This document shows positions 1 to 35,383 of a stretch of DNA of 35,383 nt, piece by piece (position 1 is the stretch's first letter; every line of letters begins with the position of its first letter). Origin of the DNA: a virus. The translations under genes and the position numbers were made by a program. Where the stretch lies: IMG/VR virus record IMGVR_UViG_3300007735_000660, positions 1 through 35,383 of that record; one strand, written 5' to 3'. The notes below the pieces were generated by a model that did not search any database, was not told where the DNA came from, and saw nothing but the letters and a program-made list of their open reading frames with translations.

Positions 1-100
1 GGCCGGAGTGTCCTCGGGATCTTGGCCCGCCGTGGTGGCACTCAAGCACTTCCAGTAATCTGACGTACCGTCCTGCGCCCCCGGGGGTGCCTAGAAACGG

Positions 101-156
101 TCGTCCACAGGGTTGTCCACAGCCTGTCCACAGGGTTGTCCACAGGGTTGTCCACA
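101..156 (+). repeat. Five tandem TTGTCCACA-like 9-mers (putative DnaA boxes or packaging iterons)
   Basis: Five copies of YYGTCCACA lie head to tail at 101-109 (TCGTCCACA), 113-121, 124-132 (CTGTCCACA), 136-144 and 148-156. Three are exactly TTGTCCACA. Start-to-start spacing is 12, 11, 12 and 12 bases, so successive boxes lie on nearly the same helix face. TTGTCCACA is the favoured DnaA box in Streptomyces-type actinobacteria. The rest of 1-174 has no supportable gene. It holds a GC palindrome at 75-90 and an inverted repeat (ACCACGG, G, CCGTGGT) at 161-175 touching the HNH stop codon; neither has a T-tract. An alternative role is a terminase-binding (cosB-like) site, because HNH and terminase genes flank the region if the ends join. 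Confidence 0.75.
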
Positions 157-174
157 GGCCACCACGGGCCGTGG

Positions 175-459
175 TCACCAGCGTCGGGTGGCTCCGGTCG
201 GCGGCTGGTACAGCGGTGCGTTCTGCCGCCGGCGGTTGCAGGCGAAGTGCGCGAGCTGCCAGTAGCGGGTGTCGAGCTTCGACCCGCCCTGTGAGGTCGG
301 GATGATGTGGTCGATCGTCGGTGCCTGGTCGTGCAGCGGTGGCAGGTCAGGCTGCACAGGTCGGCCGCACAGGTGGCAGATCCAGCCGTGGTCGGCCGTG
401 GCGAGCCACTCGGCCCGCAGCCGGTTGTAGGTGCGGCCCTTGGCGCTGTGCCTGCTCAC
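175..459 (-). CDS. HNH homing-type endonuclease (packaging-associated)
   Basis: This 94-residue protein has a compact HNH nuclease domain. A CxxC pair (C28, C31) and a later C74 suggest a structural zinc site. The catalytic core reads TIDHIIPTSQGG (D50, H51), followed by H71 and N75 in LAHFACN. HNH proteins next to terminase genes are known to stimulate cos cleavage by the terminase in many phages. Here the gene ends the early transcript, and it would lie just upstream of the small terminase if the window is circular. The GTG start overlaps the previous stop as GTGA, which suggests translational coupling. An unrelated nicking role cannot be excluded. Confidence 0.85.
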   Translation of the reverse strand: MSRHSAKGRTYNRLRAEWLATADHGWICHLCGRPVQPDLPPLHDQAPTIDHIIPTSQGGSKLDTRYWQLAHFACNRRRQNAPLYQPPTGATRRW

Positions 460-728: not shown

Positions 729-939
729 CGACGACCTTCGGGTACGGCGTGATGTTGGGGTCCAGTTCGTGGGCGAGGTCGGCGAGCAGCTGGTACGTCT
801 CGGTGAGCCAGCCGGTCGACAGGTTGAGGGCTGCGAGCATCCGGGTGGTGGTCATCAGGTGCTTGGCCGCTTCCCGTGCCGAGACGCCGGCGGTGACGGC
901 GATCATGTGGTGCTGGTCATCGGTCAGCTGTGTCGTCAT
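715..939 (-). CDS. Hypothetical helical protein, 74 aa
   Basis: This small protein of unknown function is predicted by eye to be mostly helical (MTTQLTDDQHHMIAVTAG... followed by LAALNLSTGWLTETYQLLADLAHEL). The region VSAREAAKHLMTTTRML could be a helix-turn-helix, but this is weak. It overlaps the end of the replication-initiator-like gene upstream by 23 bases and runs 14 bases into the next gene, as expected for a coupled operon member. A role as a small accessory to that upstream DNA-binding protein is only a guess from position. Confidence 0.55.
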   Translation of the reverse strand: MTTQLTDDQHHMIAVTAGVSAREAAKHLMTTTRMLAALNLSTGWLTETYQLLADLAHELDPNITPYPKVVDGQA

Positions 940-1648
940 GGTCGGCCCGTCGGTAGTGGCGCAGGTTGTTGCCCTGACCCAGCAAGTATCCCACCACGAC
1001 CTGGTCGGGTGCGTCGGGATGCTGCTCGAGCAGCGACGTGACCTGCGCTGCGGCTCGGCCGACGAGTGCGTCCACGTCGTGACGGCCGGCGGCTGACGCT
1101 GCGGTACGGACCTTCGACACGATGGCCCTGGCCTTCCCGGTGACGTGCGGGTCGGCCGTGGTTGCGTCTTTCAGGAGAGTGTTACCACTATCTGTATCTG
1201 ACTCTGTCTCTGACTCTTGCGCGGTGACAGGGCTGTGACGGGTGGCGTGACTCACGCCCGTGTCGCGCTGTGACATGACCGCGACAGAATCGGACGAATC
1301 CCCGCCGTTGCTGGCCTGTCGGCGTTCCCGGCTGCGCTTTTGGCGTTCGATCGCTGACGCTCGGGCGTTCTGTACCTCGTCCCTTGTGCGCTGGTGTTTT
1401 GCATAGTCGTGCACAGAATGAGCGTTCTCGATGCGCTCCCAGAGCCCTGCGGCGACCAGTTCGGCGGCCGCCTTCTTGGGTCGCCGGCACGGGCTGATGC
1501 GGTTCAGGATGGCGTCCGGGATGACCCCGTCGGTGAGGTTCCTCGAGCTGTAGGTGAGTCCGTGGAGCCACATCGTCCACGCCTCGCAGGACAGTCCGAC
1601 GCACTTGGGATGCTCGGTCACCAAGTCGTCGATCTTGACCCACGTCAT
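917..1648 (-). CDS. Replication-initiator-like winged-helix protein
   Basis: The 243-residue protein begins MTWVKIDDLVTEHPKCVGLS and continues with a segment of about 90 residues typical of phage replisome-organiser or initiator proteins. These are winged-helix domains that judge whether a cell section is alike or replaced (GVIPDAILNRI, then a KKAAAELVAAGLWE helix pair). A charged Ser/Thr/Asp-rich linker spans about residues 105-165. A C-terminal helical domain (about 170-235) resembles those that contact a helicase in DnaD/O-type proteins. No polymerase, primase or helicase gene is present, so this would be the main candidate for recruiting host replication machinery, perhaps at the 9-mer array near 101-156. 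The ATG overlaps the upstream stop (ATGA). Confidence 0.55.
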   Translation of the reverse strand: MTWVKIDDLVTEHPKCVGLSCEAWTMWLHGLTYSSRNLTDGVIPDAILNRISPCRRPKKAAAELVAAGLWERIENAHSVHDYAKHQRTRDEVQNARASAIERQKRSRERRQASNGGDSSDSVAVMSQRDTGVSHATRHSPVTAQESETESDTDSGNTLLKDATTADPHVTGKARAIVSKVRTAASAAGRHDVDALVGRAAAQVTSLLEQHPDAPDQVVVGYLLGQGNNLRHYRRADHDDTADR

Positions 1649-3643: not shown

Positions 3644-3797
3644 GGCGGAGCACCCGGTAGCACTGGTCGCACAGCTGCGACGGTCCCGACGTCCAGATCG
3701 TGCGGGTCCAGACATGCCGCTTGTGGAGGGTGCAGTGCACCCTCCGGGCCTCGTCGAACGTGCTGCGCTGCAGCGGCGGCAAGTGCATCGTGGCCAT
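3636..3797 (-). CDS. Small Cys/His protein, 53 aa
   Basis: The 53-residue product starts MATMHLPPLQRSTFDEA and carries CTLH, then CDQC near the C-terminus. One cysteine and one histidine, then a CxxC pair, suggest a small treble-clef or zinc-ribbon fold. Its ATG at 3797 overlaps the SSB stop codon (ATGA), a strong sign of coupled translation with SSB. A longer reading from further upstream would be Arg-rich antisense-like sequence inside SSB, so I reject it. Function unknown. Confidence 0.55.
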   Translation of the reverse strand: MATMHLPPLQRSTFDEARRVHCTLHKRHVWTRTIWTSGPSQLCDQCYRVLRHG

Positions 3798-4195
3798 CAG
3801 AACGGCTCCTCGTCGGCTGCGACAGGTGCGGTCCGCTTCTCGTTGCGGTGCACCTCGGCGGTCGACCAGTTCAGCGCCGGGCCGACGTGCTCGGCCTGCA
3901 CCTCGACCTTCGACCGCTTGCTGCCGTCGTCGGCCTCCCAGGATCGCTGCCGCAGCTTGCCGACGACGATGACCGTGGTGCCCTTCGGGAGCGACTCGGT
4001 GACGTTCTCGGCGAGCTGACGCCAGCACACGACGTCGTAGAACGACGGGTCACCGTCGACCCATTGGCCGCTCTCGTCCTTCTTGCGGTTGTTGACGGCC
4101 AGGCCGAACGTGCACATGGCCAGCCCGGAGCCGGTGAACTTGAGGTCGGGGTCACGGGTCAGGTTCCCGACGATGGTGACTGCGGTCATTGCCAT
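3797..4195 (-). CDS. ssb: Single-stranded DNA-binding protein
   Basis: This 132-residue OB-fold SSB protects single-stranded DNA during replication and recombination. It opens MAMTAVTIVGNLTRDPDLKF, followed by FGLAVNNR and the YDVVCW strand found in bacterial SSBs. It ends with an acidic tip, ADEEPF, the tail through which SSB recruits repair and replication partners. The region between core and tip is very short compared with host SSBs. I chose the ATG at 4195 rather than a longer form because the extra 22 residues are Arg/Pro-rich. It sits one base from the RecT-like gene, with which it probably acts in strand annealing. Confidence 0.95.
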   Translation of the reverse strand: MAMTAVTIVGNLTRDPDLKFTGSGLAMCTFGLAVNNRKKDESGQWVDGDPSFYDVVCWRQLAENVTESLPKGTTVIVVGKLRQRSWEADDGSKRSKVEVQAEHVGPALNWSTAEVHRNEKRTAPVAADEEPF

Positions 4196-4196
4196 G

Positions 4197-5090
4197 TCAG
4201 GCCTCCTCGGTGGTGTCGTCGGTCGGGGCGACCGCGGCGACGATCGCCAGCACCTGCTCACACTGCGACGCCGTCCACTTCTGCGACGACAGCGGGATGT
4301 CGGCGGCCTTGAGCGCCTCGGCGATCTCGCTGTAGATGCCCTGCCCCTTGGCGATGTCGACCGCCGCCCGTGCGGTGCCCCGCAGCTGCGGTGCTGCGGG
4401 CGTGTCGCCGGTGGCGACCTTCGCCGGCGGCGTCGGTGGCGTCGGTGCTGGTGTGGGCTCCTCGACGACCTCGGCGACTTCGACCACCTCGGCGTCGGTC
4501 ACGTCGGAGTCGTCGACCTCGACGACCGGTGCGGTGACGGTCACCGTGGGCACGTCGACCTCGAGCACCTCGGCCTCGTCCTCGGTGAGCGCACCGCCGA
4601 CCAGAGCGTCCGAGCAGTAGCGGCGCACCGCCCGGCTGGTCGCACGGGCAACCAGCATGTCCTCCGGGTTGGACTTCCAGTTGGACTTCCCGGCCAAACC
4701 GGCGGTCTTGGCGTCCTCCATCGTGTAGGTCACGGTCCCGAGGGTCTCGCCGGTCGAGGTCAGGATCACCTTGGCGGTGGCCGACTCCCGGCTGGCCTCG
4801 GTGACCAGCACCCGGTACCCGGCCCGTGTGGCGAGGGCCCGCAGCAGCGTGGCGTCGATCACCGGCTTGCCCTGGACCCATGCGACCCCGTGGATGGCGT
4901 CCATGACGGACAGTCCGACACGGTCGGCCCAATCCATGGCCAGCAGGACCGCGCCGGGGTTCGCCCGGTAGGTCCGTGGCAGCAGGTCGCCGGCCTTGGC
5001 GATGGCGGTGGCCTTGGCCATCTCCACGTCGTGGCTCGCTTGCTGCACAGCGGGCGGCTGCGCCTGACGGGTGGTGAGAATCTTGCTCAT
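4197..5090 (-). CDS. RecT-like single-strand annealing protein
   Basis: The first 175 residues match the RecT-like group common in actinobacteriophages: LLPRTYRANPGAVLLAMDWADRVG, then GKPVIDATLLRALATRAGY, and the helix MLVARATSRAVRRY ending GGALTEDEAE. It would coat and anneal single strands produced by the exonuclease encoded just upstream (4-base overlap). A Val/Glu-rich, then Pro-rich linker (about residues 180-235) joins a C-terminal helical domain of about 60 residues, which may contact partner proteins. The gene is preceded by the ACAGAAGGAGAC element at 5096-5107. Confidence 0.8.
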   Translation of the reverse strand: MSKILTTRQAQPPAVQQASHDVEMAKATAIAKAGDLLPRTYRANPGAVLLAMDWADRVGLSVMDAIHGVAWVQGKPVIDATLLRALATRAGYRVLVTEASRESATAKVILTSTGETLGTVTYTMEDAKTAGLAGKSNWKSNPEDMLVARATSRAVRRYCSDALVGGALTEDEAEVLEVDVPTVTVTAPVVEVDDSDVTDAEVVEVAEVVEEPTPAPTPPTPPAKVATGDTPAAPQLRGTARAAVDIAKGQGIYSEIAEALKAADIPLSSQKWTASQCEQVLAIVAAVAPTDDTTEEA

Positions 5091-6097
5091 GTCCTGTCTC
5101 CTTCTGTGGTGTGCCTGATGGTCAACCTACGGGCCCCGACGGGTTGCCGGTGCGCCTCGTAGAGCTCGGGAGCCTCGGTCTTGGCCTTGGTCCGGTCGAG
5201 TGTGGTCATGCCGAGGTCGGGCCGTTCCAGCAGGATCGCTGTCTCGGCCTCGGCGGTCAGTGTCATCGCAGGCTGTGACACCGACACCCGGTAGCCGTCG
5301 CAGACGCCGACGGTGGCAGCGCCGATGGCGTCCCGCAGGACCGCCTCTGCGGCCTTCTGGCGGTCGGTCAGTTCCTTGATGGCAGCCTTCGTCTCGTCGA
5401 GCACCTGCACGACCTCGACCAGCGACGCCAGGTCGACGGTGTCGGCGTCCGGGTCGGCGACGGCGTTGACGACCTTCACGTCGTCGAGGGCGCTGCCGTC
5501 CTGCGGCTCGGGCAGGGTGCCGGCGTCGATGTGGACCAGCAGCCGGTCGGCCACCATGACGAGCTGGTCGGCGATCATCTCGTCCCGGTCGATCCGCACG
5601 ATGCGGATGCCCTCGCACACGTCGTCGACGTCGTCGATGGTGGCGATGGCGATGACCGCCCGTGGCACGCCGGTGACATGCATCTGCCACTGCACCTGCG
5701 CCTTGGTCCGCTCCAGGTTGTGGCGCACACCGACGCCCGTGGTCTTGACCTCGAGCACTGCGGTCACGTCGTCGATGTCGCAGTCCGGGACCGGTGCCAG
5801 GAACCCGTCGACCGTCGCCCGGTGCCGGCGCTCGTCGACGTGCTCGCACCACGTCTCCTCGCCGACGACGTACAGGCCGGTGAGGGCGTGCACTGCATCG
5901 GCGATCGTCTCCTGCCACCGCTGGCCGCGTTCCATCGCCGTGGTCTGCTCGGGCGGTGGGATCAGGCCGAGCTTGCGGCCGACCACCGAGTAGGCACCGC
6001 CGTAGCTGCCTGACCAGGCGTCGGCGACCTCGGTGGCGGTGATGCCACCCCTGCGCCACTCAAGCCATGCGTCATGTTCGTCGTCGTGGACTGGCAC
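5087..6097 (-). CDS. YqaJ-type (lambda-like) recombination exonuclease
   Basis: A PD-(D/E)XK exonuclease of 336 residues, expected to chew one strand of linear duplex DNA and feed the RecT-like protein. Visible motifs, in order: WRRGGITATEV (14-24), MERGQRWQE (55-63), ATVDGF (94-99, catalytic Asp), LEVKTT (115-120, the ExK pair) and QVQWQMHVTG (134-143, the conserved helix of the YqaJ family). The C-terminal third (about 210-336) has an extra helical, partly coiled-coil domain (KAAIKELTDRQKAAEAVLRDAI), common in phage versions. The GTG at 6097 is supported by the start-associated element at 6103-6114. Confidence 0.9.
   Translation of the reverse strand: MPVHDDEHDAWLEWRRGGITATEVADAWSGSYGGAYSVVGRKLGLIPPPEQTTAMERGQRWQETIADAVHALTGLYVVGEETWCEHVDERRHRATVDGFLAPVPDCDIDDVTAVLEVKTTGVGVRHNLERTKAQVQWQMHVTGVPRAVIAIATIDDVDDVCEGIRIVRIDRDEMIADQLVMVADRLLVHIDAGTLPEPQDGSALDDVKVVNAVADPDADTVDLASLVEVVQVLDETKAAIKELTDRQKAAEAVLRDAIGAATVGVCDGYRVSVSQPAMTLTAEAETAILLERPDLGMTTLDRTKAKTEAPELYEAHRQPVGARRLTIRHTTEGDRT
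5096..5107 (-). promoter_or_regulatory. Start-associated ribosome-binding element, copy 3
   Basis: An exact ACAGAAGGAGAC on the minus strand, followed by AGGAC and the ATG at 5090. It lies inside the 3' end of the exonuclease gene, so the element is also coding sequence there. Confidence 0.7.
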
Positions 6098-8371: not shown

Positions 8372-8748
8372 CGGTCGACCTCGACGTCCATCATTCGCAC
8401 GATGCCGCCCTTCGAGAACCGCCCCTGCGGCTTCGTCACCTGCCAGGTCACGCCGGTCGTCGGCGACGTGATCGTACCGCCTGCGCCCTCGGCGTGAATG
8501 ATGGCGATGTGCCGCACACGGGCGAGAACGTCGGCAGCCTTCTGCTGCATCTCCGCAGCGAGCGCCAGCAGGTCCGGCACCTCGTCGGTCGGCACCAGCC
8601 CGGCCTTGCCGGCGACGGTCGCCAGGTCGCCGTCGATGCGGGCCAGCAGATGCAGGGCGTCGAACAGCGCCGTGTTGACGTCGGCGATGTCGAACTCGTC
8701 GTCGCTCACTTTTGTCGGCGTCTGTTCGGTTTTCTGGTCGTCGCTCAT
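8368..8748 (-). CDS. Hypothetical protein, 126 aa
   Basis: The 126-residue protein starts MSDDQKTEQTPTKVSDDEFD, with a flexible acidic N-terminus. A long helix pair follows (VNTALFDALHLLARIDGDLAT and LLALAAEMQQKAADVLARVRHI), then a C-terminal strand-rich part (TITSPTTGVTWQVTKPQGRFSKGG). It ends EVDR, with the last codons forming part of a gene-end sequence related to the repeat at 8742-8763. Function unknown. Its start overlaps the end of the Mom-like gene (ATGA), so the two may be made in fixed ratio. Confidence 0.5.
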   Translation of the reverse strand: MSDDQKTEQTPTKVSDDEFDIADVNTALFDALHLLARIDGDLATVAGKAGLVPTDEVPDLLALAAEMQQKAADVLARVRHIAIIHAEGAGGTITSPTTGVTWQVTKPQGRFSKGGIVRMMDVEVDR

Positions 8749-8763
8749 CGGTCGACCTCCTGC
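8742..8763 (-). repeat. 22-bp gene-junction repeat, copy A
   Basis: This copy encodes the QEVDR end of the Mom-like gene and supplies the ribosome site and start (CAGGAGGTCGACCG then ATGA) of the next gene. It is identical to 9326-9347. Degenerate relatives occur at 8368-8385 and 456-473, both at gene junctions. Confidence 0.75.
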
Positions 8764-9332
8764 TTTCGCAGCGAGTACGTCCACCGATGCTTCGGCCCCT
8801 GCGTGGTGACTCCGTCCCACGATCCATGTCCTGACGGGTAGCCCCGGCCATTGGCGTCGAACCGTTGGCCGTGGTGTGTTGGCGAGTACGTCCAGCCGCT
8901 CGCCTTGTAGAGCGCCCCCGTATGGCCGTGAATCGGGTCTGAGTACGAAACCAGCGTCGTCACGGTGTGGTCAGTCCGTGCCAGTTGACGCCGTGCCCAC
9001 GCCATCATGCGACTGCCGGCATTCCGTCCGGCGTCAGCAGTCAGGCACCACCGGGACAGTTCCAGCCATGAGCCATCGCTCGGCAACATGCGAGCAGTCG
9101 GCCAGCGCCAGACCTGGCAGGCGACCATGACATCGTCGACCCATCCAGCGAAGCAGCGACGAGCCGAACGCACAGGCCCGAGGTAGTGCTCGGCTGCGAG
9201 CAGCCCATTGACCTCGTCGACGCTTGCGTGTGTGAACTGGAGCCGTGGGGTCGGACTTGCACCGCCATCTCCTGCCGGGAATGGCAGGCGTGCTACTCGT
9301 TGCACCACCACGGCACGATCGGTGCCGCTCAT
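8745..9332 (-). CDS. Mom-like DNA adenine modification protein
   Basis: The 195-residue protein resembles phage Mu Mom, a GNAT-fold enzyme that converts adenine in phage DNA to a carbamoylmethyl form and blocks many restriction enzymes. Visible Mom-like features: a HYLGPVRSARRCFAGWVDD strand-turn (about 49-66), LELSRW (90-95), GRNAGSRMM (102-110, acyl-donor loop position) and SYSDPIHGHTGALYKASGW (129-147). About 45 C-terminal residues end WTYSLRKQEVDR. Mu regulates mom through Com and Dam; I see no com-like gene beside this one. The start overlaps the upstream stop (ATGA). A generic acetyltransferase is the main alternative, but the SDPxxGHxGxxYxAxxW block favours Mom. Confidence 0.8.
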   Translation of the reverse strand: MSGTDRAVVVQRVARLPFPAGDGGASPTPRLQFTHASVDEVNGLLAAEHYLGPVRSARRCFAGWVDDVMVACQVWRWPTARMLPSDGSWLELSRWCLTADAGRNAGSRMMAWARRQLARTDHTVTTLVSYSDPIHGHTGALYKASGWTYSPTHHGQRFDANGRGYPSGHGSWDGVTTQGPKHRWTYSLRKQEVDR

Positions 9333-12654: not shown

Positions 12655-12903
12655 TCACTGCCCGTCCTCAAGGATCGCCTGGGCAGCTGGCTTCACGTCG
12701 TCGAGCGTCGTGGCGTCGACGATCGCCTGGGCGAGCTGGCGCAGCGGGTCGGGCGTGTCGACGACGACCGGCAGGCCGGTGAGCGCCTCGGTCGACGCCA
12801 CGGTCCCGTCGGCGTTGTAGGTCGTGCGGGTGCCGGTGCCGTCGCCGTTGTCGACGGTCGACTCGACGAGCACGCCGTTCTCGTAGTGCCAGTGACCGCT
12901 CAT
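12655..12903 (-). CDS. Hypothetical tail-fibre-adjacent protein, 82 aa
   Basis: From the ATG at 12903 (overlapping the fibre stop, ATGA) the product is 82 residues. Residues 1-50 are strand-rich (HWHYENGVLVESTVDNGDGTG and TTYNADGTVASTEALTG), resembling short repeats from fibre or baseplate proteins. The rest is helical and acidic (PLRQLAQAIVDATTLDDVKPAAQAILEDGQ). The family is unknown. A longer upstream reading is Gln/Arg-rich and overlaps the fibre gene, so I reject it. Confidence 0.5.
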   Translation of the reverse strand: MSGHWHYENGVLVESTVDNGDGTGTRTTYNADGTVASTEALTGLPVVVDTPDPLRQLAQAIVDATTLDDVKPAAQAILEDGQ

Positions 12904-15338
12904 GCGAACCTCACAGCGACGATGGGCGACTGGTTGATGTTGTCGGTGACGGCCGTGACCGCCGGGTAGCTGGTGATCGCCCCGGTGCCAGGGCTCTTGA
13001 GCCAGCCGCTGAACTGGTTGGCGCTGCTGCTGGTCGACGCCGGCATCGGCGGGACGTTGCACGCCGCAGCCACTGCCCGTGCCGTCAGGGCGTTCGCCGA
13101 CCGGTTGTGGACCACGACGTAGTAGAGGCCCGGATTCACCGCTACGGCCGTGCCGGTCGCCGACAGCACCTGCGTGCCCGTGCCGGTCGTCGTGACGCTG
13201 ACCGTGAACACGCTGCTGTTCGGGTCACCCGACGAGTTCGCCGACATGAGGTGCAGGTCGATCGCCTGACCGGATGCCGTCGCCGACGACAGGTCGACCT
13301 GCAGGCCGTCGACGGACTCGACGTCGTAGATCGGGTATGGCGTCGCCGTGGCCGCACCGGACGCCACCGACCGTGTGCCACCGCTCGTCACGCCCGGCGG
13401 GTAGTAGTAGCGGCCGGTGACGTAGTACGCCTGGACGACCGGCCGTGCGTAGGTCTGGTCGCCCCGCAGGAACGTCGAGGCCGAGGCGGTGCCGGTCCCG
13501 AGGCGGGCGGTGGCGACCGTCCCCGAGGTGAGTTTCCCGGCGTCGATGGCGTTGGGCACGTCGTTCGTCCGGCCCGGACCGAGGACGAGGATCTCACCGT
13601 TGTTGGCGTTCACCCGAGTGACTCGGCCGACATTCTGGATCAGCTCACTCGCCCCGGTCGGCTTGGTCCCGGTGAGCTGGCCGGCGGTGGTGCTGACGTA
13701 CACCGCCTGATTGATCGCATAGGCCGCCGTGTTGACGCCTCGCAGCGTGCCGAGCACGGTGACGTAGCCCGTGGCGTTGGCTGCGAGGCTGGTCTCGGTC
13801 AGGCCGATCGCCGGCATCGTCGCTGCGTTGTCCGCATCGGCCGGGGCGATCTCGACCGTGGACGTGGACCCGACGGTCCCGGTGGCGTAGACCGGCGCGC
13901 CCTTGGCGATGGTCGACCCGCTGGTGTTCTTCACCGGTACGTACACCGGCACGTCGGCGGTCCACTCGCCGAGCCCGTTCAGGAACGTGTAGCTGGTCGG
14001 AGTGCCCGTGCCGAGCCGGGCCGGTGCGACCAGGCCGGATGTGATCTTGGCCCCGGACAGACCTTGCGGGATGGCGATGGTGCCGTCCGTGGTGCTGATC
14101 GTGTTGCCGACGCCGTCGGTGAAGGACGTGGCACCGACCCCGGCGGTGGCGATGTGCGACGGCTGAATGTCGAGGATCTTGGACCCGCCGTACTCGTGGA
14201 CCGTCATCCACGCCACGTCCATGCGGTTCTGGATGCCGATCTTCCAGGTCTCGACGCCGTTCGGGTCCATGCTGGCGAACCGGGCGTCCGTCTCCGAGGC
14301 GACCGGCTCCCACCAGTAGCCGTCGTCGGTCTGCTCGATGCCGGTCACCCCGGTGTCGTAGGGAACCCACCGCCACTGTGTCACCGTCTCAGTGGCCGTG
14401 TCGTGCGTCAACCGGGCGATCAACGGGACACCGATCAGGCGGCTGCCGTCGTCGTAGAAGAACCCGGCCGACTCGCCTGCGGCCCCGGTCAGGGTCGACT
14501 CGTAGAACCAGGCGGCCACACCTTCCTGCAGGTTGCTCTGTGTGAACGTCTCGTCCGGGTGGAGGATCGCCCACTCGGTCAGGTCGCCACCGGTGGCCGC
14601 CGCCTTGGTCTGAGTCAGGATCTCCCGGTACCGCTGGTAGGGCCAGTCGGTCGACGTGCCCGCCAGCTCCGAGTCCTCGTAGGGGCGGTGCAGGTAGATC
14701 TTGGCCCGGACGTCGATGCCGTCAGGCGTCGCCGGCAGCGTGCCCGTGCCGGTGCTGGCGTTCGTGATCTGCCACGTGCCGCCGTAGTCGCCGTCCATGC
14801 TGGCAGCGGTCGGGTAGCAGCGCAGCCACGGTGCGGTCGTCGTGTCGAGCTCGTTGTCGAGCGCGTCGGCCAGCCATGCACGCTCGCCCGGATCGGTCGT
14901 CTCGGGCTTCTGCAGGTTGGACAGCGCCCAGCCCCACGCCCCGCCGATCTGTATCGACAGAAACTGGACGACCTCGCCGACGTTGAGCGTGTACGTCGAG
15001 CCGATCCCGAAGAATGTGTCCGACCCGGCCGCACTGATCGTGGTCGTCACAGCAGCGGCGTTGATGCCGACCAGCTGGCCGGCGTTGTCCTCGGCGTCGG
15101 GCATCGTGACCGCAGCGCCGGTCGTCGACACCGCTGACTCGTCGGTGATCGTGAACGGGTCGGTCGTCGTGAACACCGACTCGGCCCGCTGGCCGCCCCC
15201 ACCACCACCCGCAGGACCCTGCGGCCCGGACTGTGCGACCTCGAGCACCAGCGTGGTGGCGTTGACCGACAAGGTCGACAGGGCCTCGGTTCCCCTGACC
15301 TGCACATCGGCGTTCGTCGTCGACAGCTCGAGCGCCAC
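12900..15338 (-). CDS. Tail fibre or receptor-binding protein
   Basis: From a GTG that overlaps the upstream TAG by one base the product is 812 residues. The N-terminal 35 residues are strand-rich, then a collagen-like stretch SGPQGPAGGGGGG (about 37-49). The middle has a long Thr/Ser/Gly-rich strand pattern typical of fibres. Two similar segments near residues 425-465 and 585-625 (KITSGLVAPARLGTGTPTSY and KLTSGTVATARLGTGTASAS) are internal repeats, and the region between them contains further repeats. The C-terminal part is again strand-rich, a candidate receptor-binding head. High Thr/Ser content is consistent with extracellular location. It is the largest fibre-type protein here and the best candidate for host recognition. 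Confidence 0.85.
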   Translation of the reverse strand: MALELSTTNADVQVRGTEALSTLSVNATTLVLEVAQSGPQGPAGGGGGGQRAESVFTTTDPFTITDESAVSTTGAAVTMPDAEDNAGQLVGINAAAVTTTISAAGSDTFFGIGSTYTLNVGEVVQFLSIQIGGAWGWALSNLQKPETTDPGERAWLADALDNELDTTTAPWLRCYPTAASMDGDYGGTWQITNASTGTGTLPATPDGIDVRAKIYLHRPYEDSELAGTSTDWPYQRYREILTQTKAAATGGDLTEWAILHPDETFTQSNLQEGVAAWFYESTLTGAAGESAGFFYDDGSRLIGVPLIARLTHDTATETVTQWRWVPYDTGVTGIEQTDDGYWWEPVASETDARFASMDPNGVETWKIGIQNRMDVAWMTVHEYGGSKILDIQPSHIATAGVGATSFTDGVGNTISTTDGTIAIPQGLSGAKITSGLVAPARLGTGTPTSYTFLNGLGEWTADVPVYVPVKNTSGSTIAKGAPVYATGTVGSTSTVEIAPADADNAATMPAIGLTETSLAANATGYVTVLGTLRGVNTAAYAINQAVYVSTTAGQLTGTKPTGASELIQNVGRVTRVNANNGEILVLGPGRTNDVPNAIDAGKLTSGTVATARLGTGTASASTFLRGDQTYARPVVQAYYVTGRYYYPPGVTSGGTRSVASGAATATPYPIYDVESVDGLQVDLSSATASGQAIDLHLMSANSSGDPNSSVFTVSVTTTGTGTQVLSATGTAVAVNPGLYYVVVHNRSANALTARAVAAACNVPPMPASTSSSANQFSGWLKSPGTGAITSYPAVTAVTDNINQSPIVAVRFA

Positions 15339-15688
15339 TACAGCGTCCAGTCCTTCACGACGAACGGGCCCGAGCACAGGGCCACGTCGCTGGAGCCGTC
15401 GTTCCACTGCAGCGACCACCAGTAGCGGCCCACGTCGAGGGTCGCATCGGCAGCGGCGACGGTGATCTTGAACTGGCCGGCGGCGGCGTTCGTGATGGTC
15501 GCCGTGAACGTCTTGACCGCTGCGGCCGACGACTCGGATGCGGTGATCTCGGCGGTGATCGTGTAGCCCGAGATGTTGATCGCCGTGCCGCCGGTCGTGG
15601 CTGTGAACGTCCGGGTCCAAGTGCAGTTCTCCCGCACGGTCCAGGTGACGTATGCGCCTGCGTCGTCGAATGTGACTGTGCGTGCCAT
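15338..15688 (-). CDS. Minor tail/baseplate protein, Ig-like or BppU-like
   Basis: The 116-residue protein is almost all beta-strand: MARTVTFDDAGAYVTWTVRENCTWTRTF..., with alternating hydrophobic residues and a final WSLQWNDGSSDVALCSGPFVV. This pattern is that of small baseplate-upper or Ig-like adaptor domains that anchor fibres. It lies directly upstream of the fibre gene and shares a TAGTG junction with it, so the two are probably made together. GGGAGG lies 4 bases upstream of its ATG. Confidence 0.65.
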   Translation of the reverse strand: MARTVTFDDAGAYVTWTVRENCTWTRTFTATTGGTAINISGYTITAEITASESSAAAVKTFTATITNAAAGQFKITVAAADATLDVGRYWWSLQWNDGSSDVALCSGPFVVKDWTL

Positions 15689-33606: not shown

Positions 33607-35019
33607 TCAGTAGGCGAACACGGGCGCAGGCTTCTGCACCTCGTCATCCAGAGTAGTGGCACCCCACAAGGCCAATGTCGCTGCGACCAGCGGCGAGATG
33701 TCGACCGCCGACGACGACCTCGACCACGCCCATGCGTCACCCAGCTTGCGGGTCGCCGCACCCGCCACCGCCGTCGTCATGTCGACCTGGTCGGTGTGGC
33801 GCACACGCCGGTTCGCCACGGCGTCATAGAACCGGCCGCAGGCCGACGCCATCTGGCGCGGCCCGGTCGTCTCGACCCGCAGACCAGCCGCCTCCATCTC
33901 CGGCACGAACGTCGACGCCGGGCCCGCAGCGTCCACCACGAACGCCTTCGGCGAGTAGCGGTCGTTCAGCTCAATGCACCGGGACACGACCCACTCGGTG
34001 CCCGGCCGGCGGTCGGCGAGCTCGAACACCGTTCCGTCGCACACGACGATCGACGACATCGCCCGGTCCGGTGCCACGTCCACAGCGAACACCACACCGT
34101 CGACACCCGGCGACACGTCCCCGGCGCACGCCTCCCAGCTGCGGGCCGGGATCTTGCTGGCGAACGCCTGCGCCGTCCACCGGTTCAGGTAGGCACGCTC
34201 AAACTCGGCCGGTTCCTTCGACAGCTGCTCAGCGGCGATGCTCTCCACCGGGATCGTGCGGCCGAGGCTCGGGATGCACCGCCACCACGTCTTCGGGTCC
34301 GACGGGTCGTCCTCGCTGTCGGCCGACCACTCGAAGTACGCCAGCCCCGAGTCGACGCCATCCCGCACGGCGTCACGACCACGCTCCACCTTCGCCTTCA
34401 GGTAGGTCGACTCGGCGTGACCGGCCGTCGAGATCACCCACATCTGCGGCTCCGGACGAGTGATCATCGCCGGTGAGAACCCTTGGTCCAGCCGGTGGTC
34501 CTTGAACTCGAACGCCTCGTCGACCACCGCCAGGTCGATCTGCCGGCCGTGGCCCGCACGGTCCGTCGGCGACAGCACCTCATGCAGGCTGCCGTTGTGC
34601 CACCGGATCGACTCGTCGCCGTTCGACCACCGGATGTCATACAGCCCCGCCAGCGTCGACGCCTCGAGCATCGGCACCTGATCGTCCCGCCACTTCTTGC
34701 GGGCAGCCTGACCGTCCTGGGCCGTGTAGACGATCCGGGCTCCCGGCTGGTGCAACGCACGCCACACCATGACGGCCATCATCAGCGTCGTCTTGCCCGA
34801 CTGGCGTGGCACAGTCACCGTCACGTCCCGGTACACCAGCAGACCGGACTCCGGGTCGAACTCCAACGCCACGTCGACGACATGCTGCTGCCACGGCATC
34901 AGCGGCGTGCCCAGGCGCTCGGCGATGATCGCCACCGCCGGACCGTGCGACGGTCGGTCAGTCCGACTCGACGTGAACCGCGGCGGACAGCTCGGCAGCG
35001 AGGAGCTCGAAGGCGTCAC
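33607..35019 (-). CDS. terL: Terminase large subunit
   Basis: The 470-residue protein powers DNA packaging and cuts the concatemer. Its N-terminal segment (PPRFTSSRTDRPSHGPAVAIIAERLGTPLMPWQQHVVDVALEFDPESG) is typical of this family. The Walker A box is PRQSGKTT (71-78) and the Walker B DLAVVDEAF (162-170). A motor coupling HSLHEVLSPTDRAGHGRQ-like segment precedes it. The nuclease half shows GVVFAVDVAPDRAMSSIVV and later AFVVDAAGPAS acidic positions. I choose the GTG at 35019 because AGGAGG lies 6 bases upstream; a TTG at 35025 is possible. It overlaps the upstream gene by 62 bases. Confidence 0.95.
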   Translation of the reverse strand: MTPSSSSLPSCPPRFTSSRTDRPSHGPAVAIIAERLGTPLMPWQQHVVDVALEFDPESGLLVYRDVTVTVPRQSGKTTLMMAVMVWRALHQPGARIVYTAQDGQAARKKWRDDQVPMLEASTLAGLYDIRWSNGDESIRWHNGSLHEVLSPTDRAGHGRQIDLAVVDEAFEFKDHRLDQGFSPAMITRPEPQMWVISTAGHAESTYLKAKVERGRDAVRDGVDSGLAYFEWSADSEDDPSDPKTWWRCIPSLGRTIPVESIAAEQLSKEPAEFERAYLNRWTAQAFASKIPARSWEACAGDVSPGVDGVVFAVDVAPDRAMSSIVVCDGTVFELADRRPGTEWVVSRCIELNDRYSPKAFVVDAAGPASTFVPEMEAAGLRVETTGPRQMASACGRFYDAVANRRVRHTDQVDMTTAVAGAATRKLGDAWAWSRSSSAVDISPLVAATLALWGATTLDDEVQKPAPVFAY

Positions 35020-35233
35020 CGGCAACCTCCTCCCGTCGCAGCTCGGCGAGCAACGCCCGCAGCTCCTTCACCAGCGGACCCGACACGTCGCCGGCGTCGA
35101 TGCTCGCAGCCACCGCCGTCGCCAGCTCGGCCAGCGGCTCGAGGTCGTCGCACCAGTCGTCGTCGCCACGCCTGGTGACCAGCCATCCGGCCAGCACCGG
35201 ACCGACGCCCTTCGGCTTCGCCGGCCTACCCAC
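34958..35233 (-). CDS. Putative terminase small subunit
   Basis: The 91-residue protein begins MGRPAKPKGVGPVLAGWL, a short basic start resembling the GRPxKP beginning of some small terminases. The rest is helical and acidic (LEPLAELATAVAASIDAG and LVKELRALLAELRREEVAGDAFELLAAELSAAV). No clear HTH can be seen, so the call rests on position before the large terminase. The start is GTG at 35233 with no good ribosome site. A 13-codon minus-strand open frame (35226-35267, starting GTG) ends overlapping this start, so it may be coupled. Confidence 0.5.
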   Translation of the reverse strand: MGRPAKPKGVGPVLAGWLVTRRGDDDWCDDLEPLAELATAVAASIDAGDVSGPLVKELRALLAELRREEVAGDAFELLAAELSAAVHVESD

Positions 35234-35247
35234 AGGTCATCCCCAGC

Positions 35248-35364
35248 TTGTCCACAACGATTCCCACAGGTTCAGACTAGACCCGGACCGTTTCCGGCCG
35301 AATCCACAGGTTTTCCACAGGTCGTCCCCAAGTTGTCCACAGGCTGTCCCCAGCAACATCCACA
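35248..35364 (+). repeat. Right-edge cluster of TTGTCCACA-like 9-mers
   Basis: Exact TTGTCCACA occurs at 35248-35256 and 35333-35341, and near matches at 35300-35308 (GAATCCACA), 35311-35319 (TTTTCCACA) and 35356-35364 (ACATCCACA). Weaker forms ending CCCCA lie at 35344-35352 and nearby. All have the same orientation as the left-edge array. A CCGGA...TCCGG dyad lies at 35283-35297. A possible minus-strand -10 (TAGTCT, 35279-35274) for the late unit is weak, with no -35. The rest of 35234-35383 has no supportable gene. Confidence 0.65.
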
Positions 35365-35383
35365 AGAGGGAGAAGAAGATGCC

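Follow-up and report, generated by a model that had tools for sequence, protein, structure and literature searches.

What role do the phased arrays of a DnaA-box-like 9-mer play at the two ends of this viral genome? The preliminary description of the locus proposed a DnaA-dependent phage origin, with a cosB-like terminase site as an equal rival. We examined both readings in the window, i.e., the whole stretch of 35,383 nucleotides, and in related and unrelated phages.

Repeat arrays at both genome ends

The 9-mer arrays at the genome ends are real and not a product of chance (Table 1). Tandem Repeats Finder ranks positions 99-158 as the highest-scoring array of the window and recovers a second array at 35303-35353. 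The five left-edge boxes follow each other in steps of 12, 11, 12 and 12, which agrees with the 11-12 base period first described. All boxes of both arrays share one orientation, as had been noted; they lie on the plus strand, antisense to the genes, nearly all of which run leftward. At the right edge, the reported minimum of five related boxes is present, but the array is longer and more degenerate than described, with most boxes carrying TCCCCA and two being exact. The exact 9-mer TTGTCCACA occurs five times in the whole window, three times in the left and twice in the right array. With up to one mismatch allowed, the window has 14 matches, whereas shuffled sequences average 6.25 and none of 100 shuffles reached 14. 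Eight of these matches, including all five exact copies, lie in the end arrays within about 260 bp of an end. The degenerate form YYRTCCACM has nine matches in the window, seven of them inside the joined end region, whereas the biggest 420-bp cluster in 200 Markov simulations contained four.

Table 1. Coordinates and sequences of the features discussed (positions in the window unless another record is named).
Feature	Position	Strand	Sequence or description
HNH-side spacer to inferred cos end	1..100	.	holds some of the genome's least stable DNA, 99.8th percentile (20-bp windows)
HNH-side array	101..156	+	five 9-mers (101, 113, 124, 136, 148), all fit YYRTCCACM, period 11-12 bp
Box	101	+	TCGTCCACA, one mismatch
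Box	113	+	TTGTCCACA, exact
Box	124	+	CTGTCCACA, one mismatch
Boxes	136 and 148	+	TTGTCCACA, exact
HNH endonuclease	175..459	-	last gene ahead of cos
Replication-initiation-like protein (Rep)	917..1648	-	PHROG 2447, E 2.5e-32
Single-strand DNA-binding protein (SSB)	3797..4261	-	
RecT-like and RecE-like recombinases	4197..6097	-	
Terminase large subunit (TerL)	33607..35025	-	
Small-terminase-position gene (TerS)	34958..35233	-	91 aa; matches no family; assignment rests on its place ahead of TerL and on conservation in relatives
TerS-side array	35237..35364	+	about 8 boxes, two exact (35248, 35333), others degenerate, 11-bp phase, two blocks
Box	35237	+	TCATCCCCA
Boxes	35248 and 35333	+	TTGTCCACA, exact
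Box	35300	+	GAATCCACA
Box	35311	+	TTTTCCACA
Box	35322	+	TCGTCCCCA
Box	35344	+	CTGTCCCCA
Box	35356	+	ACATCCACA
TerS-side inferred cos end	35365..35383	.	GGCATCTTCTTCTCCCTCT on minus strand
Origin-like stretch of G011	L256 10776-10965 = G011 26.78-26.96 kb		palindromes GGTGACGATCGTCACC, TTATCCACA on both sides

Genome ends and packaging site

The window record has no terminal repeat or end overlap, so we infer the junction of its ends and do not read it directly. The contigs of relatives stop at the same place. The contig of the closest relative, L002 (TerL 99% identical), starts at the base matching window position 35383. Three more distant relatives (L003-L005, TerL 79-84%) start at a comparable place, 9-10 nt ahead of the TCTCTCTCC block, and two others (L183, L184) start close to, though not exactly at, the base matching 35383. 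In a sister family (TerL ~46%), four contigs (L009, L010, L011, L013) each start with ACCGAYTTTTT and two (G007, G011) end at GACGCGCCAC. The joined sister contig L012 carries 12 extra nucleotides, CCTGCGCCTTTC, at 4684-4695 between a G007/G011-type end and the ACCGAYTTTTT start. Such extra bases would be expected if a 12-nt 3' overhang drops off linear ends during library preparation. Judged from these contigs, the cos of the sister family is a 3'-overhang site placed between HNH and TerS. Metagenomic contigs can hence reveal a 3'-overhang cos through bases that are absent from linear contigs and present in a joined one. Given the shared contig termini and the sister cos, the window ends are very probably virion (cos) ends located between HNH and terS, and the arrays would thus flank cos on the circle. 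The first description had likewise placed the arrays at the packaging site with HNH and terminase genes flanking once the ends join, and this placement holds. We found no joined close relative spanning the window-type cos, whose overhang is missing from the contig, and Rep or HNH queries recovered no HNH-side close relatives of the window.

Replication genes and host

Counted from the right end, the TerS-position gene and TerL are followed by portal, protease and capsid genes. A RusA-like protein is encoded in addition to the Rep, SSB and recombinases. When about 40 ORFs were scanned against PHROGs and Pfam, no phage polymerase, primase or replicative helicase was recognized, consistent with the earlier account of an initiator-like gene unaccompanied by these enzymes. 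The absence of replicase genes is not proven, since several ORFs including 12900-15620 have no family match. Phage replication appears to be host-dependent. No iterons were found in or near rep, and neither a search of the rep region nor Tandem Repeats Finder detected another iteron array near the gene. A gene for a WhiB-like regulator indicates an actinobacterial host. Host assignment from MAG bins was distrusted: a 99% relative falls in an Actinomycetota bin but a 78% relative falls in a Rhodobacteraceae bin. Among the remaining genes, 8745-9332 (minus strand) matches a PHROG family of Mom-like DNA modification proteins, with base modification against restriction as a possible function. The ORF at 12900-15620 (minus strand, 906 aa) lies between holin/endolysin and tail genes, has no PHROG or Pfam match, and is perhaps a tail fibre.

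Match to actinobacterial DnaA boxes

The 9-mer TTGTCCACA is listed as a high-affinity DnaA box of M. tuberculosis and S. coelicolor (PMC4285127), and the consensus at Streptomyces oriC is [TC][TC][GA]TCCAC[AC] (PMC3583192). Seven boxes of the joined ends, including all five of the left array, fit this Streptomyces consensus, which may differ from that of the actual host. The joined ends hold a DnaA-box cluster of seven YYRTCCACM with five exact copies of TTGTCCACA. The core was rightly described as matching the actinobacterial DnaA box, with both sequence and degeneracy fitting Streptomyces and Mycobacterium boxes (PMC4285127, PMC3583192). Chromosomal oriC regions of these actinobacteria similarly contain clustered intergenic TTGTCCACA or YYRTCCACM 9-mers, recognized there by DnaA. 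The phage boxes differ from oriC by their single orientation, their spacing of 11-12 bp and their split by the packaging site, and the arrays are not next to dnaA/dnaN.

Recurrence in phages with unrelated terminases

A BLAST search of the array against phage records retrieved Arthrobacter globiformis phages with boxes at the extreme right end. In Richie, Faja, Gorpy, Seahorse, Auxilium, Tiff81, BillyTP and others, an HNH gene is followed by boxes and then cos. The boxes are located 57-102 nt from the cos end after the terminal HNH gene, and terS begins around base 64 in the genomes whose left end was read. We refer to the whole group as cluster AY, a cluster name taken from papers only for MidnightRain and JellyBread. 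The box motif is TT[G/A/T]TCCACA and has one orientation relative to transcription in every phage read. The genome end of MidnightRain is a 3' overhang, CGCCGGTGA (PMC10871062). MidnightRain was found by the same array search, and its overhang equals the invariant last nine bases of 11 aligned ends. AY phages thus share HNH, a DnaA-box array, cos and terminase genes with the window, in the same orientation. They differ in being temperate with genomes of ~50-56 kb, in carrying the array on the HNH side only, in having an AT-rich palindrome after cos, and in their unrelated TerS and TerL. Between the window and Richie, TerS similarity is undetectable and TerL similarity is not significant. Richie encodes a Pol III beta-clamp (DnaN) and has no annotated polymerase or Rep. 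Just inside the left cos end of Richie (MH834625, bases 24-38), an AT-rich palindrome, TTCAAAAATTTTGAA, ranks among the genome's least stable DNA and could be an unwinding element for the adjoining boxes.

In both phage groups the boxes vary in number, spacing and base 3 among members with similar terminases. Four AY phages compared have TerS 91-97% identical and no change in the final 15 nt at cos, while their boxes number 2 to 4 and differ in spacing; the box variation concerns chiefly base 3 (G/A/T) and copy number. Relatives of the window with TerL identity of 77-84% have 0 to 3 TerS-side boxes, some inverted. A single TerS-side box is recognizable in L005 and L184, no box is found upstream of TerS in L006, and boxes of opposite orientation occur in L003 and L005. 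Related prophages (TerL 41-52% identical) have no boxes between HNH and TerS. The window and L002 share identical exact boxes, with differences in the adjoining degenerate units.

Many viral contigs, of widely differing GC and gene context, carry tandem TTRTCCACA arrays. T5-like viruses, 40-kb enterobacterial viruses and micro-viruses have similar ones, and in T5-like phages and 40-kb Klebsiella phages tandem TTATCCACA arrays lie within or close to the terminal repeats or the genome ends. T5-like phages and others with such arrays are not known to initiate replication from DnaA boxes. The presence of an array alone hence does not prove an origin. The gene neighbors of 119 survey arrays were mixed (replication, terminase, methylase and other), with no single linked partner. 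Nine survey arrays lie within 150 bp of contig ends compared to 2.8 expected, a modest enrichment which fits a frequent placement near genome ends and may partly stem from redundancy or assembly breaks. In G011, a TerL relative, boxes are missing at cos. G011 encodes a polymerase/primase, and just after that gene two GGTGACGATCGTCACC palindromes and an AT-rich tract have TTATCCACA boxes on either side, in a layout resembling an origin. In the Curtobacterium phage Elener, which has no annotated polymerase, a mixed TTGTCCACA/TTATCCACA array (L253 26032-26082) is located mid-genome at the 3' end of a gene for a DNA-binding protein.

Probable binding by host DnaA and competing explanations

The box match, the apparent host dependence and the same boxes beside cos in unrelated actinophages support the host-DnaA reading of the preliminary description. 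We consider it probable, from these sequence comparisons, that DnaA binds the arrays. The proposed equality between DnaA and a terminase site does not hold up. Recognition of the boxes as cosB-like sites by the small terminase or HNH protein would suit their position, since the boxes are placed on either side of the inferred cos, with the TerS-side array occupying the stretch from cos to terS in which lambda has its cosB. Lambda-type cos (cosQ-cosN-cosB) indeed also has repeated protein-binding sites adjoining cos before terS. The motif of the window, however, matches a DnaA box and is present to the left and right of cos, and its turnover is not tied to TerS. The repeats are neither specific to their own TerS nor conserved with it: AY phages share the motif without detectable TerS or significant TerL similarity to the window, and their boxes change at near-constant TerS and an invariant cos end. 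The varying number and orientation of TerS-side boxes in the closer TerL relatives, and their absence in the prophages, point the same way. Such turnover is unlike a terminase-specific site, while a site for a conserved host protein could behave in this manner. A role as cosB therefore appears improbable. We judge equally poor the prospect that the boxes are iterons of the phage's own Rep and resemble DnaA boxes by chance or convergence. The rep gene is located ~1 kb from the boxes, is recorded as on the same strand, and has no other iterons nearby, but in AY phages the motif goes with another set of genes, which has DnaN in place of an annotated Rep, and the degeneracy follows that of DnaA boxes. 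Neutral repeat expansion could account for the fast change in copy number between relatives. The exact boxes nonetheless stayed the same in the window and L002 while neighboring degenerate units diverged, and the array recurred independently at cos in an unrelated phage group, making neutral expansion highly improbable.

DnaA binding is more likely than an origin role; that the arrays form the origin and not some other DnaA-dependent site is less secure. The boxes might titrate DnaA away from host oriC, or might halt transcription or serve as a switch where the early operon (HNH end) meets the late one (TerS). Titration has a precedent in datA of E. coli (PMC5835720). The spread of TTRTCCACA arrays across varied GC, gene contexts and virus types shows no tie to one replication type, and the boxes keep a fixed orientation to transcription across the window and the AY phages read. 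The orientation of the window is also shared by 21 of 30 survey arrays between co-directional genes, although this 21:9 bias is weak and ignores relatedness. The inverted boxes of L003 and L005 and the origin-like context of the G011 boxes speak against such functions, and 13 boxes would sequester little DnaA before the phage replicates. We regard these other uses of bound DnaA as possible yet rather unlikely.

A candidate origin at the cos junction

That a host-DnaA binding array forms, or helps form, a phage origin at the cos junction is a proposition we hold in even balance. After injection, the cohesive ends would join and place the two arrays, with the readily melting DNA that separates them, in a single intergenic region of ~400 bp. 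Host DnaA would occupy the phased boxes, probably jointly with the phage Rep. At the DnaA-bound junction, the duplex would be opened and host helicase and polymerase III recruited. The purpose of the arrays would thus probably be the borrowing of host replication machinery. Several plasmids are known to have their Rep protein assisted by host DnaA (PMC4980987). Plasmid origins using Rep and host DnaA (P1, F, RK2, pSC101) likewise combine their own Rep, DnaA boxes and a reliance on host DnaA and replisome (PMC4980987). In contrast to these origins, no separate Rep iterons were found in the phage and the boxes are located at cos.

Among 20-30 bp segments of the window, the least stable (99.7-99.8th percentile) fall between the two arrays, in DNA that is not AT-rich and at a kind of site, intergenic, that is perhaps softer generally. 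No conspicuous AT-rich unwinding element is present at the junction. GC skew at third codon positions has its cumulative minimum at the junction in both the window (p 0.026) and Richie (p 0.0005). We rejected this skew as origin evidence: G007 and G011, which lack arrays at cos, share the junction minimum, and the pattern reflects early and late modules. In Elener, the skew minimum lies 0.3 kb from the mid-genome array (p 0.66). Origin mapping by GC skew, as suggested in the preliminary description, hence does not discriminate.

A stronger version of the origin reading, which we consider doubtful, is a split origin. Cos would halve the DnaA-box cluster, so that the origin is complete only once the injected genome has circularized and is dismantled by terminase cleavage. 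If true, end-joining would be coupled to the start of replication and packaging to replication shut-off. Two halves that make one origin only after circularization would add a new variation to how origins are controlled.

Implications for actinophage replication

DnaA boxes in phages and plasmids are already known; the arrays belong to this known type and are unusual in their placement. In the open-access literature searched, we found no description of DnaA boxes arranged with cos or terminase in phages, neither of boxes on both sides of cos nor of their recurrence at cos among phages with unrelated terminases. To our knowledge, the origins of most actinophages are unmapped. An array beside cos that is shared by two or more phage groups whose terminases are unrelated, cultured Arthrobacter phages among them, offers a candidate origin that can be tested directly and that might physically connect circularization, replication and packaging.
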